38,625 nucleotides of DNA from Actinomycetota bacterium (GTDB lineage Bacteria; Actinomycetota; Acidimicrobiia; Acidimicrobiales; RAAP-2). Below are positions 30,028 through 38,516 of the stretch, piece after piece (the first letter of the stretch is position 1; each line of letters opens with the position of its first letter). The DNA is taken from contig JAJPJV010000024.1 in assembly GCA_021324045.1 (NCBI GenBank), positions 1 to 38,625 of the forward strand, read 5' to 3'. The position numbers and the translations under genes were made by a program. A model generated the notes under the pieces. The model worked only from the letters and a program-made list of their open reading frames with translations. It was not told the DNA's origin and made no database searches.

Positions 30028-31884
30028 ATGTCGACAGTGACGCCAATGCCGTCGAGAGGATTATGGCATCGGGTGCAGTTGGCGCTGATCCGCCGACGAC
30101 TGGACCGCTATCCCTCTACCGCTCCCCGCTACGCGTACCTAGGGATCGTAGTCCTGATCGCGATCTCGCTTTATTACATCTACTGGGAGGAAGGTGCCAC
30201 ACTTCCCCTCCTCCTCCCCTACTACCACATGTCATTCCACTACTTCTTGGTGTTGGTAACAATTTCGAACGCCATCGGGGCATTCGCTGCCGGCGCTGCG
30301 GGCCTGTCCGACAAAGTCGGTCGCGTCAACATGGCACTGTTCGGCACCCTCTCCATCGGGCTCCTCCAACTCGTGGCGATCCCGAACATCAGCTCCAAGC
30401 TTGGCTTCGCGTTCGCCTACAGCGCCATCGGCATCGTAGAGGGCCTCGTGCTGGTGGTCACGCCGGCACTGATGCGCGACTTCTCTCCTCAAATCGGAAG
30501 AGCATCAGCGATGGGGTTCTGGACCCTCGGCCCGGTGCTCGGGTTTCTTGCCGCCTCCCTCGTTGCCACCCACACGCTGCCTCACCTCCATCCCTGGCAG
30601 GACCAGTTCGTCATCTCTGGCATCACCGCCATTGTGATCTTCGCGATCGGCTTCTTCGGTCTGCGCGAGCTCTCTCCGCAGTTACGTGCTCAGCTCATGG
30701 TCACCGAGCGCGAGCGCGCCCTGGTTGAGGCACGTGCACGAGGCATTGACTTCGAGGCCACGATCCGCAAGCCACTCCAATCGGTCTTGCACCTCGACCT
30801 GATCTTGTCATCCATCGGCATCTCGGTGTTCTTGCTGATCTATTACGCAGCCGTCACCATCTTCACGATCTATTGGGTGTTGGTGTTCGGCCAGACGACT
30901 GCGAATGCCAACGGAATCAACGTCTGGTTCGCTGCCTGCAACGCCGGTGCCGTCGTGGTGACCGGCATCATCTCGGACGCATTGCATGTCCGAAAGCCCT
31001 TCATGCTCATCGGGACGGCGGGAGCCATCGCGATGACCATCATCCTGTTGAGCAGAACGAGCTTCCCGCACACGGGTTACTACACGCACGTGATCATCGT
31101 GAGCCTGTTGGGCGCCAGCATTGGTATCGCCTATACCCCTTGGCTCGCCGCCTTCACAGAGCGGATCGAGGACCGCCATCCAGCGCTCGTGGCGACCGGC
31201 CTCGGCCTGTGGGGGTGGATCCTCCGCATGGTGGTGGCAGTTTCGTTCCTCGTGATCCCCTACGTGATCACAACGGCAACCATCGCCGTCGACAACCAAG
31301 CGGCTGCGACGAGTCTCCAGGCCCTCCAAGCGGCCCAACCCTACTTCCCGACAGCAACCAAGCCCCTACCGCCGCCCATGCCCGCCACCGTTCGTGCTGG
31401 CCTCGAAGCCGTCGGGTCTCCAGGACGGGCCGCGGTCGTGTTCCTTCGTGACTACCCAGCGAATTACGCGGCGACGCACAATTTTGCCCTCGCGCAGGTA
31501 AGGACCGCCTTGGAACATCCCTCCCTCACGGGTCAGCTCACCGCTCTCCAGAGCTTCGTCCCGTTGGCCGCGCGCATCCGTGCAGGCCAGCACGTCAGCC
31601 CGGCTGCGATCGCCGGGGTCGGAAGATCTTCTCCAGTCCTCGCCACTCTGCTACGCGCCGAAGCGCAGCTCGTCCCGGCCCAGAAGGCCGCACCTGATGA
31701 GTGGCGCCGCTGGTGGTGGGTGTGTGTTGCTGGACAGATCATCTTCTTGCTGCTCATCTTTGCGATGCGCGGGCGTTGGAGTCCAAGGGCAGCCCGCCGT
31801 GACCTGACCGAGCACGAGCGGATGGTAGAGATCGAACTCGCCAAATTGCGCCAGGAGGGCACGCTGCTCGAACAGGCAAGCTGA
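30028..31884 (+). CDS. MFS transporter with large loop before the last helix
   Basis: The 618-residue protein has twelve hydrophobic segments and the MFS loop motif between TM2 and TM3 (GLSDKVGRVNMALFG). A central cytoplasmic stretch (about 225-255) follows TM6, and a second DxxxxRKP-like turn (SDALHVRKPFML) follows TM8. Between TM11 (about 395-415) and TM12 (about 562-580) lies a polar, Ala/Pro-rich insertion of about 140 residues, predicted to be extracytoplasmic. The C-terminal tail is charged. A strong GGGGGA ribosome site precedes the ATG. The substrate is unknown. The gene stands alone between metH and the SRAP gene, which starts eight bases after its stop. Confidence 0.88.
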   Translation: MSTVTPMPSRGLWHRVQLALIRRRLDRYPSTAPRYAYLGIVVLIAISLYYIYWEEGATLPLLLPYYHMSFHYFLVLVTISNAIGAFAAGAAGLSDKVGRVNMALFGTLSIGLLQLVAIPNISSKLGFAFAYSAIGIVEGLVLVVTPALMRDFSPQIGRASAMGFWTLGPVLGFLAASLVATHTLPHLHPWQDQFVISGITAIVIFAIGFFGLRELSPQLRAQLMVTERERALVEARARGIDFEATIRKPLQSVLHLDLILSSIGISVFLLIYYAAVTIFTIYWVLVFGQTTANANGINVWFAACNAGAVVVTGIISDALHVRKPFMLIGTAGAIAMTIILLSRTSFPHTGYYTHVIIVSLLGASIGIAYTPWLAAFTERIEDRHPALVATGLGLWGWILRMVVAVSFLVIPYVITTATIAVDNQAAATSLQALQAAQPYFPTATKPLPPPMPATVRAGLEAVGSPGRAAVVFLRDYPANYAATHNFALAQVRTALEHPSLTGQLTALQSFVPLAARIRAGQHVSPAAIAGVGRSSPVLATLLRAEAQLVPAQKAAPDEWRRWWWVCVAGQIIFLLLIFAMRGRWSPRAARRDLTEHERMVEIELAKLRQEGTLLEQAS

Positions 31885-32901: not shown

Positions 32902-35900
32902 TCAATGGAAGTCCCGGGCCTTCGTCGAAGTGGCCAAGGCGAGAGGCTCGATGCGTTGAGCGACCACGTTGACGACGCCGTCGGCCGACTCCAGGATCCC
33001 ACGCACGAGCATGGCCGAGGCGGATCGGGCGACACGGCGGTGACGCGACCAGACGCCTTTCGGGCACACCACGTTCACCATCCCCGTCTCGTCCTCAAGA
33101 TTGACGAAGGTGATTCCTCGAGCCGTCTCGGGCCGCTGCCGGTGAGTGACCACGCCAGCAACTGTGACCCGACTTCCTGAAGCCAAGGCATCCAACCGGG
33201 CGGCCGGGGTCACACCAAGCTGATCGAGCGACTCCCTGACGAGCTCGGTGAGGGAGGAATCAACAGCGATCCCGGTCGCCCACAAATCTGCAACCAGCTC
33301 CTCGGTTGTATCCATCGCCGGAAGCAGCGGAGCGTCGGTGCCGACGACAATACCCGGCAGCGTGTCTTCGCCCACCCGAGCGAGCGCCCCGAGCGCCCAC
33401 AACGCTCGGCGACGATCCCCTTGCCCCCCAGAAGAATTGGCGGTGCCCTCTCGAAGCGAACTGGTAGCACCAGCCATGGCAAGAGCCTCCAACTGAACCG
33501 ATGAGAGACCGCTTCGCCGGGCAAGATCCTCGAGATCTCGATAGGGCTGCGCAGCGACGAGGCGCTCAGCAGCTTCGTTACCGATAGATCGGATCGACGA
33601 CAACCCCAAGCGGATCGCCGGAGATCCGTTTGGTGCATCGCTATCGATGGGTTCGAGCCGTGCCATAACGCTACTGCGGTTCACATCTGGTCTCCGAACA
33701 ACCACGCCATGACGGCGGGCATCTGCCACCAGCGTTCGTGGTGCCCAAAAGCCCATTGGCTGAGAGTTGAGGAGGCCTGTGAAGAAGGCAGCCGGATAAT
33801 GCACTTTCAGCCAGGCGGAGACATAGACGAGATAGGCGAAGGAGGCCGCGTGGGATTCTGGGAAACCGAAATTGGAGAAGGCGGCCATTTGAGAGAAGAT
33901 CTCATCGGCAAAGGGCCCGGTGATCCCTCGCTCTGCCATCCCCGCATAGAACTTGCTGCGCAGGGCCTCCATGCGCTGCACGGAACGTTTCGACCCCATC
34001 GCTTGCCGGAGCTGGTCAGCATCTGCCGGGCTGAACCCGGCCACATCGATGGCCATCTGCATCAGCTGCTCCTGGAAGATCGGAACGCCAAGCGTCCGTT
34101 CGAGGCAAGGAACGAGCAGGGGGTGGGGATAGGTCACCTCCTCTCGACCGTTGCGACGCCTGAGGTAGGGGTGGACCGATCCTCCTTGGATCGGTCCCGG
34201 ACGGATCAATGCCACCCCGACGACGAGGTCATAAAAACAGCTCGGCTTGAGCCGGGGAAGCGTCCCCATCTGGGCACGGCTCTCCACCTGGAAAACGCCA
34301 ACGGTATCTGCGCTGCACAGAAGTTCGTACACGGCGGGTTCCTGAGGAATTGTTGCCAAGTCAATCACTTCCCCGTGATACTCGGCGATGAGGTCGATAC
34401 TGCGATGGAGTGCTTCGAGCATTCCCAAACCGAGCAAGTCGAACTTCACCAACCCGACGGCTGCGCAATCTTCCTTGTCCCATTGGAGCACACTGCGGCC
34501 CGGCGCCGTTGCCCATTCGACTGGACATACCTCGATCACGGGTCGATCGCAGATGACCATGCCGCCGGAATGGACACCAAGGTGCCTCGGGAACCCTTGA
34601 ATCCTGTTTGCCAGTTCGAGCACGGGCTGCGGGATGTCATTGTCTGTTTCTACTTCAGGCTCAAGTTGGCGCGTCCATGCGTCGATCGTCCCTGTGGCGT
34701 AGCCGAACGCCCTGGCCGCGTCACGAACCGCGGAGCGAGGTCGATAAGTGATGACGTCCGCCACCTGGGCAGCATAAAACCGGCCATAGCGTTCATAGAC
34801 GTACTGGATGACTTCTTCCCTACGCCCACTCTCGATGTCGACGTCGATATCTGGAGGACCATCACGCGCTGGTGACAAGAATCGCTCGAACAACAGTCCG
34901 AGCCTCACCGCATCGGCATTGGTGATGCCAAGGGCGTAGCACACTGCAGAGTTGGCCGCGGATCCTCGACCTTGGCAGAGGATGTCGCGCCGACGACAGA
35001 ACTGCACGATGTCCCAGACGATGAGGAAGTAGCCAGAGAAGCCCAACGTCTCGATCACCTCAAGCTCGTGATCGAGCCGAGCCCAGGCGCCGGGAACGGT
35101 CTCGTCTTCTCGAGGCCCATAGCGTGCGAGCGCCCCCTGCGAAACCAGCTGCCGGAGATAGCTCATCTCGTCGTAGCCAGAAGGGACCGGAAACGGCGGA
35201 AGGCCCGGTGCAACCAACTGGAGATCGAAGGCAAGTTCCTCGCCCAGCTCCGCGGCTCGCTCGACCACTCCGGGATATCGGGCGAAGCGGCGAGCTTGCT
35301 CGCTTCCAGAGCGGAGGTATGCACTCGGGCTAACGGACAGCCACCCATCCATGTCGTCAAGGGAACGACGTGCCCGAATCGCCGCCATTGCCGTCGCCAA
35401 TCGATAACCCGCTGGAGTGGCGTAGTGGGCGTTGGTCGTCGCCACCAGGTCGACTCCCCTCGACACCGCAAGAGCAGCCAAGGCGTCATTGCGCGCTGAG
35501 TCCAGGGGTTCATCGTGATGCCACAGCTCCACCGCCACGTTGTCCCTTCCGAAGCACTCGACGAGCTCGTCGAGCGCACGCCCTGCAGCCTGGGGCCCTT
35601 CGGTGAGGAGCGCCTTCGGGACCGTCCCTTTCCGACATCCGGTGAGCACCAGCCAGTTCCCAGAATGCGCTGCCGCCAGCTGCTCGAAAGAGAATGCCGG
35701 TGCACCCTTGCCTGCACCAAAGAGATGCGCCTCGGCGATCGCGCGGCTGAGTCGGCGATACCCCTCTGGACCTCGAGCGAGGACGACCAGATGCGATCCC
35801 TCTGGATCGGCGATGCCGTTTTGACGGCGAGTCAACCCCAAAGTCAGTTCGGCTCCGAACACCGTCGGGATCCCACTCGCGCGAGCTGCCTCGGCGAAGC

Positions 35901-36048
35901 GAACGGCACCGTAGAGCCCGTTGTGGTCGGTCAGCGCCAGCGCCACCAGGCCCAACCGGGTGGCTTCTCCAACCAGCTCATCCGGATGGGAAGCGCCATC
36001 GAGGAAGCTGAAGTTCGAATGGGCGTGCAGCTCCGCGTACCTCGTCAT
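32902..36048 (-). CDS. dnaE2: Error-prone DNA polymerase DnaE2
   Basis: DnaE2 (ImuC) is the catalytic C-family polymerase of the SOS mutasome, used to copy past lesions. The 1048-residue product begins MTRYAELHAHSNFSFLDGASHPDELV (PHP domain). It has GFSGYFLIVWDIVQFCRRRDILCQGRGSAANS, the catalytic DIDVD motif near residue 400, and VGVHSGGMVI. The C terminus carries a helix-hairpin-helix region and an OB fold (RVTVAGVVTHRQRPETARGITFVNLEDETG). That pattern, its length and the imuA/imuB neighbours separate it from the replicative DnaE1. It starts 60 bases after imuB in the same direction. Confidence 0.95.
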   Translation of the reverse strand: MTRYAELHAHSNFSFLDGASHPDELVGEATRLGLVALALTDHNGLYGAVRFAEAARASGIPTVFGAELTLGLTRRQNGIADPEGSHLVVLARGPEGYRRLSRAIAEAHLFGAGKGAPAFSFEQLAAAHSGNWLVLTGCRKGTVPKALLTEGPQAAGRALDELVECFGRDNVAVELWHHDEPLDSARNDALAALAVSRGVDLVATTNAHYATPAGYRLATAMAAIRARRSLDDMDGWLSVSPSAYLRSGSEQARRFARYPGVVERAAELGEELAFDLQLVAPGLPPFPVPSGYDEMSYLRQLVSQGALARYGPREDETVPGAWARLDHELEVIETLGFSGYFLIVWDIVQFCRRRDILCQGRGSAANSAVCYALGITNADAVRLGLLFERFLSPARDGPPDIDVDIESGRREEVIQYVYERYGRFYAAQVADVITYRPRSAVRDAARAFGYATGTIDAWTRQLEPEVETDNDIPQPVLELANRIQGFPRHLGVHSGGMVICDRPVIEVCPVEWATAPGRSVLQWDKEDCAAVGLVKFDLLGLGMLEALHRSIDLIAEYHGEVIDLATIPQEPAVYELLCSADTVGVFQVESRAQMGTLPRLKPSCFYDLVVGVALIRPGPIQGGSVHPYLRRRNGREEVTYPHPLLVPCLERTLGVPIFQEQLMQMAIDVAGFSPADADQLRQAMGSKRSVQRMEALRSKFYAGMAERGITGPFADEIFSQMAAFSNFGFPESHAASFAYLVYVSAWLKVHYPAAFFTGLLNSQPMGFWAPRTLVADARRHGVVVRRPDVNRSSVMARLEPIDSDAPNGSPAIRLGLSSIRSIGNEAAERLVAAQPYRDLEDLARRSGLSSVQLEALAMAGATSSLREGTANSSGGQGDRRRALWALGALARVGEDTLPGIVVGTDAPLLPAMDTTEELVADLWATGIAVDSSLTELVRESLDQLGVTPAARLDALASGSRVTVAGVVTHRQRPETARGITFVNLEDETGMVNVVCPKGVWSRHRRVARSASAMLVRGILESADGVVNVVAQRIEPLALATSTKARDFH

Positions 36049-36108
36049 CTCGATTCATCAGCTCAGGTGGTTACTCGATCAACCAGTTGCAGGTAGCCAT
36101 TCGTTCAA

Positions 36109-37683
36109 TCAGTCGTAGGTGGCCTCGACCCACCATCGATCCCCTTCGAGGAAGCAGAGATGGGCGCTGCCCCCATCGATCATCACCTGGAACCAAGCTC
36201 GACGCCGCCGTGATGGCGGGTCCCACCACCGCTCGTCGCTCAACCATGGGCCGGCCCAGGCAACGATGGCAGCTGGTGATCCTCCGGCAATCGATACCGT
36301 CGAAGGCGACGCCGTCAGCCTTCCGCGCGAGCTCACTCCGACCGCCTCACCCGCAGGACCACGCATTTGGGCCGGTAAGGGGTCCGGATACACCAATGCC
36401 GGTGCAGGAACCGGATGACGACCAGGCCAAGGGCAGGCGTCCGGCTCGCCTTCGTGATCCTCTCCCCATGGCACAAGGACCGCCCGTTGCAGCGGTGCAC
36501 GTCCTCCGCGAAGTGCTCCGGTGAAAACCTTGCCCGGTCCAAGCAGGGCGAAGAGACGCCCTACCCCTCGAGCCGCTCGGTGGTCGACATCCGTAGCGGC
36601 ATGTTCTGCATCTCCGAATGCGAGCTGACGACCGCCAGCGGGTGCGACCTCACTGGCTTCCAGTCGCAGGAAAACAATCCCCCCGCTTGGCGCCCATCCG
36701 TGCAGTTGCCAGCGCAACCGCTCGACGATTCCCTCGACACAAAAGCGGTCCCGCACCCGCCAGCGACGCTCTCGGTGCTCAGCATGCTCGCTCCTGAGCT
36801 CGATGCAAAGCTGTGTACATACCAGCCTCTGTTGATCGAGTCGAGAGAGGAGCTCCTCAGCAGCCATCTTCCCTACAGCAACGACACGATCAACGCGGTC
36901 AACTGCTGGATCGAGCTCGATCGCCGTACTGAACTTCTCTGGGGGTGGCGTGAAGCGAACCAGCTCGTCATCGAGACCTCGCGCCAATCGGTGTGCCGCG
37001 GCGGCATCTGGCCCGAATCTGGCTAGCACCGAAGCGGCAGGCAGAGCGGCAAAGGCACCCAGGGTGTGGATTCCCAGGCGACTGAGGAGCTCGGCCAGCG
37101 CCGGACGCCTGAGCACCGAAAGCGGGTAAGGAGCCAGGAAGGATGCCGTTGCCTCTCTGGGAACGATCGCCTTGCGCCTTGCTGCCAAGGTCGCCGCAAA
37201 GAGCCCTTCGGCGATCCCAACCCCTACCTCCATCGGGAAGGGCAGCGCGGAGCTGGCCACCTCTGCCACCCGTTGGCAGAGGGCCGGCTCACCACCGAAG
37301 TACCGCTCGGCTCTTCGAACATCCAGCGCACAGAGCCCTGGCCGACTCACCTCGATCGCAGGAACCAACGTTGCAATCGCTGCGACGACCGGCTCGAAGG
37401 CCCGAGCTTCTTGTACAGGGTCGCGCGCCCTGACCACCAGGCCCGGGCACCGGCTTTGCGCTTCTCGTCGCCGTAGGCCTATCCTCACCCCCTCCCGACG
37501 AGCCGCTGCCGAACAAGCCATCACCTGGTTGCCCGAGGTCACGGCCACCGGTACCTCCGGAGGCATCCCGAGGGCGACGACGGGCCAGTCAGGACACCAG
37601 GCCACTAGCACGCGTCTGGACCCGCCCATCACTCGACGTTCTCCCCTGGCCATGGGACTCCAGAGCTCCCGCCCTACGGGCAT
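36109..37683 (-). CDS. imuB: ImuB, Y-family polymerase-like mutasome protein
   Basis: ImuB is a Y-family homologue without polymerase activity that links DnaE2 and ImuA to the beta clamp. The 524-residue product begins its conserved part at RRVLVAWCPDWPVVALGM and has the Y-family palm region with GLCALDVRRAERYFGG, where the usual acidic SIDE-type motif is lost. Fingers and little-finger domains (LSRLGIHTLGAFAALP, then ELDPAVDRVDRV) and a long C-terminal region follow. A QLAF segment at about residue 360 (GGRQLAFGD) could be a clamp-binding motif. The ATG at 37683 follows the imuA stop by three bases; starts at 37653, 37632 or 37629 are also possible. Confidence 0.92.
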   Translation of the reverse strand: MPVGRELWSPMARGERRVMGGSRRVLVAWCPDWPVVALGMPPEVPVAVTSGNQVMACSAAARREGVRIGLRRREAQSRCPGLVVRARDPVQEARAFEPVVAAIATLVPAIEVSRPGLCALDVRRAERYFGGEPALCQRVAEVASSALPFPMEVGVGIAEGLFAATLAARRKAIVPREATASFLAPYPLSVLRRPALAELLSRLGIHTLGAFAALPAASVLARFGPDAAAAHRLARGLDDELVRFTPPPEKFSTAIELDPAVDRVDRVVAVGKMAAEELLSRLDQQRLVCTQLCIELRSEHAEHRERRWRVRDRFCVEGIVERLRWQLHGWAPSGGIVFLRLEASEVAPAGGRQLAFGDAEHAATDVDHRAARGVGRLFALLGPGKVFTGALRGGRAPLQRAVLVPWGEDHEGEPDACPWPGRHPVPAPALVYPDPLPAQMRGPAGEAVGVSSRGRLTASPSTVSIAGGSPAAIVAWAGPWLSDERWWDPPSRRRRAWFQVMIDGGSAHLCFLEGDRWWVEATYD

Positions 37684-37686
37684 CGG

Positions 37687-38439
37687 TCATGTCGCAAGAG
37701 GGGATACCGCCCGTCGCGAAGCACCCTTGCAGAACTTCATCGTTTCTCCCCTCAAAGCACCGTCGGGGCCGGGAAGCCACGCGGTGGCATGCCGCTCCCG
37801 GGCTGCAGCCCGCCGCCCAGATGAGCGAATCGTCACGCGACGGCGTACAAGGGTCCCGACACCAGCACTCAGTCCCTCCCAGCCCTCGGTCTCCACTTCC
37901 AATCGCAGATCCGGGGGCTCGGGCCAGTGCTCACCGACCACGAGAACAGAGCCGCTCTGCCGTGCCCGGCTTGCCAGACGACGGGCATCAGCAGGCCGGC
38001 AACGGCCTGGCGTGCCCAATGATCCCTGCATTCCTTGGAACGAGCGCAACGAGGTCAACGAAGGGGGGCTCGATGGCCAGGTAGAACCCGGCGGGCAGAG
38101 AACTACCAGGTCAAGAGCATCGAGCAACGTGGCGGTGACCTCCAACCAGCTTCGACCCGGCCGAGGGACGAGGACCAGATGATCGAGGCGAATCCCAAAG
38201 CCCGCAGCCGATTCGATGCCCACCGCGGGCACTCCGATGAGCGCAGCCCACGATCCAGCCTCTACAGGGTGGGCAAGCAAGGCATAGACCAGGGACGTCG
38301 ATCCCGAAGCGCCAGTGACCACGACGACGCTGCCACGACGGATCCCCCCCTCTGGGAACAACCCAGCGAGCACCGGGTGGACCTGGAGGACCTCTTCGCT
38401 GGCGATCCGAGGTACGAGAGGAGACACGGCTCCAAGCAT
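37687..38439 (-). CDS. imuA: ImuA-like RecA-related mutasome protein
   Basis: ImuA proteins are RecA-like accessory factors of the DnaE2-ImuB mutasome. The 250-residue product has VLAGLFPEGGIRRGSVVVVTGASGSTSLVYALL, a P-loop-like region in which the Walker A Lys is replaced (GASGSTS), suggesting weak or absent ATP hydrolysis. A WAALIGVPAVGIESAAGFGI segment and LDALDLVVLCPP (Walker B-like) follow. It ends three bases before the imuB ATG. The ATG at 38439 lies directly behind the SOS palindrome, so the mRNA may be leaderless; the GTG at 38427 is an alternative start. Assignment rests on fold motifs and the operon. Confidence 0.85.
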   Translation of the reverse strand: MLGAVSPLVPRIASEEVLQVHPVLAGLFPEGGIRRGSVVVVTGASGSTSLVYALLAHPVEAGSWAALIGVPAVGIESAAGFGIRLDHLVLVPRPGRSWLEVTATLLDALDLVVLCPPGSTWPSSPPSLTSLRSFQGMQGSLGTPGRCRPADARRLASRARQSGSVLVVGEHWPEPPDLRLEVETEGWEGLSAGVGTLVRRRVTIRSSGRRAAARERHATAWLPGPDGALRGETMKFCKGASRRAVSPLAT

Positions 38440-38441
38440 AA

Positions 38442-38457
38442 GCGAACATATGTTCGC
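38442..38457. promoter_or_regulatory. LexA (SOS) box
   Basis: GCGAACATATGTTCGC is a perfect 16-bp palindrome matching the Gram-positive and actinobacterial LexA consensus CGAAC-N4-GTTCG. It ends two bases before the imuA ATG and would place imuA-imuB-dnaE2 under DNA-damage control. A possible -10 element, TATGCT, follows on the minus strand (38440-38435), so the box would fill the promoter spacer. Confidence 0.93.
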
Positions 38458-38516
38458 CTACCACTCGGAGCCGTCCCGGAAAGGGCGACTCGTCACACCC
38501 CATGAGCCCCAGCCCG

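Follow-up and report, generated by a model that had tools for sequence, protein, structure and literature searches.

A LexA box in the predicted promoter spacer of an Acidimicrobiia imuA'-imuB-dnaE2 operon, and LexA boxes that hold predicted leaderless start codons in its relatives

The operon and its LexA box

The stretch studied here (the window) is an entire contig (C2) of 38,625 nucleotides from the 2.75 Mb, 52-contig genome of an Acidimicrobiia-type actinobacterium, and our subject is the imuA'-imuB-dnaE2 operon that it carries, together with the LexA box in front of imuA' (Table 1). The operon is an SOS mutasome and an ordinary, well-supported member of its kind; its SOS control is read from sequence throughout. 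ImuA' scores 150.6 bits against its NCBIfam model (cut-off 65), and a Pfam search found no family for it at an E-value of 0.001. ImuB reaches 49.9 bits with Pfam IMS (cut-off 23.2) and falls far under the cut-offs of the DNA polymerase IV models, so that it is a Y-family relative rather than DNA polymerase IV, and presumably catalytically dead; its nearest named relatives are Acidimicrobiaceae and other Acidimicrobiia metagenome assemblies. The third protein scores 1428.7 bits with the error-prone polymerase model NF004225 (cut-off 939) as against 721.6 bits with the alpha-subunit equivalog NF004226, under its cut-off of 1002, which makes it DnaE2 rather than DnaE1. The complete, contiguous run described in the initial annotation, with called gaps of 3 bases (imuA'-imuB) and 60 bases (imuB-dnaE2), is confirmed in its coordinates and by all three family models. 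The start of imuB is uncertain: in 46 related loci homology sets in at residues 4-25 of the called open reading frame, most often at residue 24, and a start at the internal ATG 37629 would widen the gap to imuA' from 3 to 57.

Table 1. Features of the imuA' promoter region and operon in the window.
Feature	Position	Strand	Basis and remarks
imuA'	37687..38427 from the preferred GTG start (246 amino acids); 38439-37687 as called	minus	NF058630; start by comparison of loci; predicted leaderless
imuB	36109..37683	minus	Pfam IMS; Y-family polymerase relative; true start may be ATG 37629
dnaE2	32902..36048	minus	NF004225; error-prone DNA polymerase III alpha subunit; PHP, NTPase, finger, HHH and OB domains
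LexA operator, perfect 16-bp palindrome GCGAACATATGTTCGC	38442..38457; core GAACATATGTTC at 38444-38455	minus	sequence; conserved position
Predicted -10 TATGCT	38435..38440	minus	in register with TACACT/TACGCT/TACCCT/GATACT, which follow the box in relatives; contains ATG 38439
Weak -35 candidate GTGGTA	38459..38464	minus	by eye; 18 nt before the -10
Alternative imuA' start ATG	38437..38439	minus	in frame, +4 after the core; judged unlikely

The palindrome ends two bases before the in-frame ATG 38439, as first described. It contains the only perfect LexA core (GAACN4GTTC) in the window; since 0.61 such cores are expected by shuffling, its presence alone is not significant, and the weight lies with its position and conservation. 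We compared imuA' loci from the window's family and order. An imuA' match was found in 76 of 81 genomes (5/81 without), and 75 of those 76, our own included, gave a main set of 76 loci. Left out of it were G059 (match confined to the C-terminal half), the first of two G080 loci (without upstream DNA; the second was used) and a duplicate G070 locus. A second set holds 46 loci of named relatives, partly of the same species as the main set and not sorted by layout. Of the 76 loci, 74 have a perfect core ahead of imuA'; the G080 box has one mismatch, and in G002 no box was found within 320 nt of imuA'. The flanking C and G of our box match the Streptomyces venezuelae LexA consensus, whose outer t/a are g/c here (PMC9380542).

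The same genome encodes LexA and RecA and has further boxes. One LexA (216 bits, cut-off 111) and one RecA were found in the genome search, with two boxes upstream of lexA and one upstream of recA, and ruvC also carries a box. The lexA boxes lie 34 nt apart on contig C10 (L063 1995-2040), with lexA on one side and a divergent gene for a LysM-domain protein on the other; further on, at 2743-3213 of L063, comes an NrdR-like open reading frame, recognised by eye. In other actinobacteria lexA and a cell-division inhibitor form a comparable pair.

The predicted promoter and start of imuA'

Two layouts recur among the 76 loci: in the spacer layout (type A) a -10 follows the LexA box and the start lies downstream of the box, and in the start-in-box layout (type B) the -10 precedes the box, which contains the start codon. 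The set splits into 40 type B and 36 non-type-B loci, the window being among the 36, and offsets (+n) are counted from the end of the box core. Our layout script gave no clear layout for imuA' in G000, G002, G063, G075 and G053; in G000 it ended one codon short of the GTG, and that locus is included in the register counts.

In the non-type-B loci, box, -10 and start keep a common register. The box is perfect in 34/36, and a -10-like hexamer begins 0-3 nt past the core in 31 of these 34; an open in-frame ATG/GTG stands at +11..+16 in 31 loci, 30 of which have the hexamer too. Of the 33 ATG/GTG triplets at +11..+17, all but one share the frame of imuA' (32 to 1). The named loci give a similar picture, with a perfect box in 45/46, a -10-like hexamer in 31 of these 45, a start in register in 40, start plus -10 in 31, and triplets at +11..+17 in the imuA' frame in 40 cases against 3 in other frames. 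The spacing from -10 to start is 6-9 nt in 30/31 spacer-type loci, and in the window TATGCT is followed by 7 nt and then GTG 38427, at +16. The nearest relatives read box-GCTACACTCCGCGC-GTG-AGT and box-GCTACCCTCTCTGGGG-GTG-AGC; the closest loci have GTG AGC, GTG AGT or GTG CGC where the window has GTG TCT, serine coming second in several. By eye, the close relatives also show TTGGAA, GTGGAA or TTAGAA as -35 candidates, 17-18 nt before the -10, and others TTGAC/TTGCC.

We propose, with a probability of roughly 85%, that imuA' is governed by LexA seated on the promoter spacer, released upon damage, and translated without a leader from GTG 38427. LexA would bind the palindrome, filling 16 of the 18 nt between -35 and -10, and so may block RNA polymerase; DNA damage would lead to RecA-driven removal of LexA; transcription would then begin about 7-8 nt past the -10, at or beside GTG 38427, and the comparison of loci suggests that ribosomes start on this leaderless mRNA at that GTG, with no Shine-Dalgarno site. 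Most simply, the box is a promoter spacer that leaves no room for a ribosome site, and the imuA' mRNA is leaderless. None of these steps would be exotic for an actinobacterium, since leaderless ATG/GTG starts are common in mycobacteria (PMC4633059) and the start codon of Mycobacterium tuberculosis lexA is its transcription start (PMC2897130). The conserved register thus lends support to the earlier suggestion of a promoter with the LexA box as its spacer. The accompanying idea, a leaderless mRNA starting near ATG 38439 or GTG 38427, is supported as to the missing leader and narrowed as to the start: ATG 38439, which is probably part of the -10 and whose +4 position is peculiar to the window among the perfect-box loci compared, gives way to GTG 38427 as the probable point where translation begins. 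That the box abuts the imuA start codon is probably not so, given that the relatives' starts lie 11-16 nt past the core; with GTG 38427 as the probable true start, the apparent abutment is likely an accident of open reading frame calling.

Several observations weigh against this proposal. The -35 is poor, and a scan for sigma-70 consensus promoters found none at imuA'. Two bases ahead of GTG 38427 stands a GGAG, which is nearer than a normal ribosome site would be but may still act as one; the box also contains a TATGTT, and ATG 38439, 5 nt past this hexamer, might use it as a -10. The N-terminus of ImuA' shows little conservation, and aligning the proteins is not enough to place the start; in 20/45 named and 5/34 non-type-B loci an in-frame ATG/GTG occurs both in the box and at +11..+17, which leaves the -10 as the sole guide to the start in these loci. 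Finally, the contig end leaves 170 bases upstream of the core, placing a farther promoter or a co-transcribed gene out of view.

Among the alternatives, the one that fares best, though we regard it as improbable, is a leaderless mRNA beginning at ATG 38439, with TATGTT (38450-38445) as the -10 and LexA covering the -10 itself. This would use the longest in-frame call and a hexamer only 5 nt away; that gap, however, is below the spacing seen in 30/31 spacer-layout loci, TATGTT occurs in just 9/34 non-type-B and 10/45 named loci, and no other of these 34 + 45 perfect-box loci has an in-frame ATG/GTG at +4, whereas a hexamer past the box, with a start at +11..+16, is frequent in relatives. Slightly less probable still is transcription from a promoter that precedes the box, giving an mRNA with a leader in which GGAG (38433-38430) is the ribosome site for GTG 38427; the box would then be a roadblock. 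Actinomadura loci apparently do have a leader that includes a purine-rich site, their GTG coming about 35-38 nt past the box, but in the window GGAG stands just two bases from GTG, no GGAG occurs there in the closest loci (L016-L019, L058, L093), and the -10 after the box keeps a conserved register. A palindrome arisen by chance, in front of an operon free of LexA control, can be practically dismissed: such cores are expected at about 0.6 per window, and the 52 core sites of the genome against 38 for the reversed pattern imply that most of its sites may be chance, but against this reading stand the conservation of the perfect core at imuA' and the boxes at lexA, recA and ruvC.

Predicted start codons inside LexA boxes at imuA' and ruvC

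The window's imuA' box holds an ATG out of frame and is not of type B. In 40/76 loci (39 genomes), all from the family to which the window belongs, the box encloses the imuA' ATG (GAACNN-ATG-TTC). This ATG is in frame in 40/40, with no in-frame ATG/GTG at +11..+17, and a TAnnnT ends 7-9 nt before it in 40/40. The proteins begin Met-Phe, with TTC as codon 2 in 40/40 (loci among L089-L111 and L193-L228), a codon that the operator would fix. Between box and matched core, a further in-frame ATG/GTG/TTG is absent from 9/40 of these loci and present at least once in 31/40. In the 34 non-type-B loci with a perfect box, in-box ATG/GTG triplets are distributed over the three frames as chance would have it (6, 8 and 8). 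In the named loci they are unevenly framed, 20 of 36 being in frame and 11 and 5 otherwise; all 20 loci in question also have a start at +11..+17, as expected 18 nt further on, and so the -10 after the box decides the start there.

The window's own clade has the spacer layout. In a quick ImuB tree of 60 rows (one of 61 was too short), in which many rows are partial and the outgroup is not clean, the family's six spacer-type genomes, the window's included, form one clade (Shimodaira-Hasegawa-like approximate likelihood ratio test, SH-aLRT, 97), and 38 type B rows fall in another (SH-aLRT 99) along with the spacer-type G056, from another family, and the unassigned G002. Because the type B clade holds these two, the fewest changes of layout come to two. 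One further locus (G053, L211) has GATACT past the box, an in-frame ATG in the box, ATC in place of the relatives' start ATG and no start at +12; it is a possible intermediate between the two layouts.

The box at C20:47948 of our genome contains the ruvC ATG, for which reason ruvC was examined in the relatives. It was matched in 78/81 genomes, and in 77 of these, our own included, a box carries an in-frame ATG (49) or GTG (28); 66 of the 77 boxes are perfect and 11 have one mismatch, and in G079 no box was found in place at ruvC. A TAnnnT ends 7 nt before the start in 61 genomes and 8-10 nt before it in 16. Codon 2 is TTC in 74, TTT in 2 and TAC in 1, giving Phe in 76/77. The conserved RuvC start (VLGIDPG or near) follows in its normal place after the box in 75; in G054 (L148) and G069 (L128) the box codon lies 10 and 16 codons further upstream, apparently through N-terminal extensions. 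In 44/77 there is no other in-frame start between the box codon and the RuvC core, and in 24 of these 44 none upstream in the open frame either, within the DNA fetched.

When 396 genomes of the phylum were scanned for the combination of box, start and RuvC N-terminus, with two mismatches allowed and without a check for ruvC in the genomes missed, the pattern matched 9/9 genomes of the family, 10/21 others of the order and 6/8 others of the class (25/38 of the class), against 5/358 outside the class, all five at two mismatches. Ten of the 11 misses in the order come from one family (f7), that of G054, whose ruvC start moved upstream; perhaps it is this shift that hid the family from the scan.

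Genes, boxes, register, frames and distribution are thus established on the sequence side. From them we consider it likely, with somewhat less assurance than for the imuA' promoter, that across most of the class the ruvC operator is built round the start codon (TAnnnT - C - GAACNN[A/G]TGTTC - GTN...), so that a single 12-bp dyad would combine the repressor site with the presumed start of transcription and with codons 1 and 2, and that imuA' is arranged likewise in most of the family, the window's clade having the spacer box instead. Repressor binding would then constrain the N-terminus of the protein, and both layouts would coexist in one genome. If this is true, the operator would reveal where some SOS genes start in a class that is large and little studied, and annotated N-termini could be checked against it; the class would also be a natural setting in which to test how the same bases can serve both a repressor site and a leaderless start codon. 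Two layouts of one regulator at one gene, moreover, would allow the shift of the operator relative to the -10 to be placed on a tree.

Other boxes, known systems and neighbouring genes

The two layouts are rare among the boxes of our genome. In 50 of its 52 boxes, read in both orientations, only three meet either layout in front of an open reading frame of at least 60 amino acids: those of imuA', ruvC and a radical SAM gene. The last, an Rv2578c-family gene with an intein (contig C10, L062 11-2005, minus strand), stays below the cut-offs of its models; its LexA core is identical to that of imuA', TATAAT follows directly and a GTG comes 6 nt later (+14), which makes it a candidate for a second spacer-type leaderless SOS gene. 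Two other genes were considered and set aside. The lexA box GAACAGATGTTC of our genome holds an in-frame ATG, which would have made lexA a third start-in-box case, but the relatives do not bear this out: among 69 perfect boxes near lexA in 30 relatives and our own genome, three have an in-frame ATG/GTG inside, none of them with a -10 in the type B position, and one is type-A-like, and we used these boxes as a negative control. At recA, 133 nt separate the end of the box core from the called GTG, so that the gene is leadered.

The operon and its SOS control are already known. The M. tuberculosis mutasome (imuA', Rv3395c; imuB, which we take to be Rv3394c) has the same three proteins by family models and an SOS box upstream; dnaE2 is separate in mycobacteria, whereas the window has all three genes in one run, with a start that appears to be a leaderless GTG. 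Contiguity is variable among the relatives as well: in the 40 of the 46 named loci that were compared, the distance from the end of the ImuB match to the start of dnaE2 is at most 300 nt in 15 and greater in 16; the other 9 show no dnaE2 within 3 kb, and 4 of these have less than 3 kb of sequence there. We therefore dropped the three-gene run as a diagnostic feature.

It is the layout with the start inside the operator that we offer as new, since, judged by titles and the beginnings of abstracts among the matches listed, we found no description of a LexA box holding a start codon in one library of open-access papers. The nearest parallels are described here from the accessible portions of the respective papers. 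S. venezuelae, whose LexA regulon includes recA, lexA, dnaE2 and ruvC, uses the same class of motif (tCGAAC-N4-GNNCGa) as the window, but its recA, lexA, dnaE2, ruvC and alkB boxes begin 20-162 bases before the predicted start (ruvC at -23) and do not lie across the start codon (PMC9380542). The lexA gene of M. tuberculosis, an SOS gene whose transcript starts at its start codon, is like the leaderless proposal made here; it is a different gene, and those portions do not state that its start codon is inside the SOS box (PMC2897130). In Deinococcus, the damage-response motif of the DdrO system (radiation/desiccation response motif, RDRM) overlaps the promoters of leaderless genes, the D. deserti ruvB transcript starting at +1 with the 17-bp motif running from -35; repressor and motif are different, however, and these figures put the end of the motif ahead of the start codon (PMC5552922). 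In Rhodobacter sphaeroides, the acuR repressor operator is near a transcript that starts at the ATG, but the repressor is of the TetR family, promoter and operator are placed upstream of the ATG, and an operator holding the ATG is not stated in the text at hand (PMC3017554).

On the far side of the operon, a gene for an SOS response associated peptidase (SRAP, Pfam PF02586; 31893-32597, plus strand) converges on dnaE2, and starts 8 bases after an MFS transporter gene (30028-31884).

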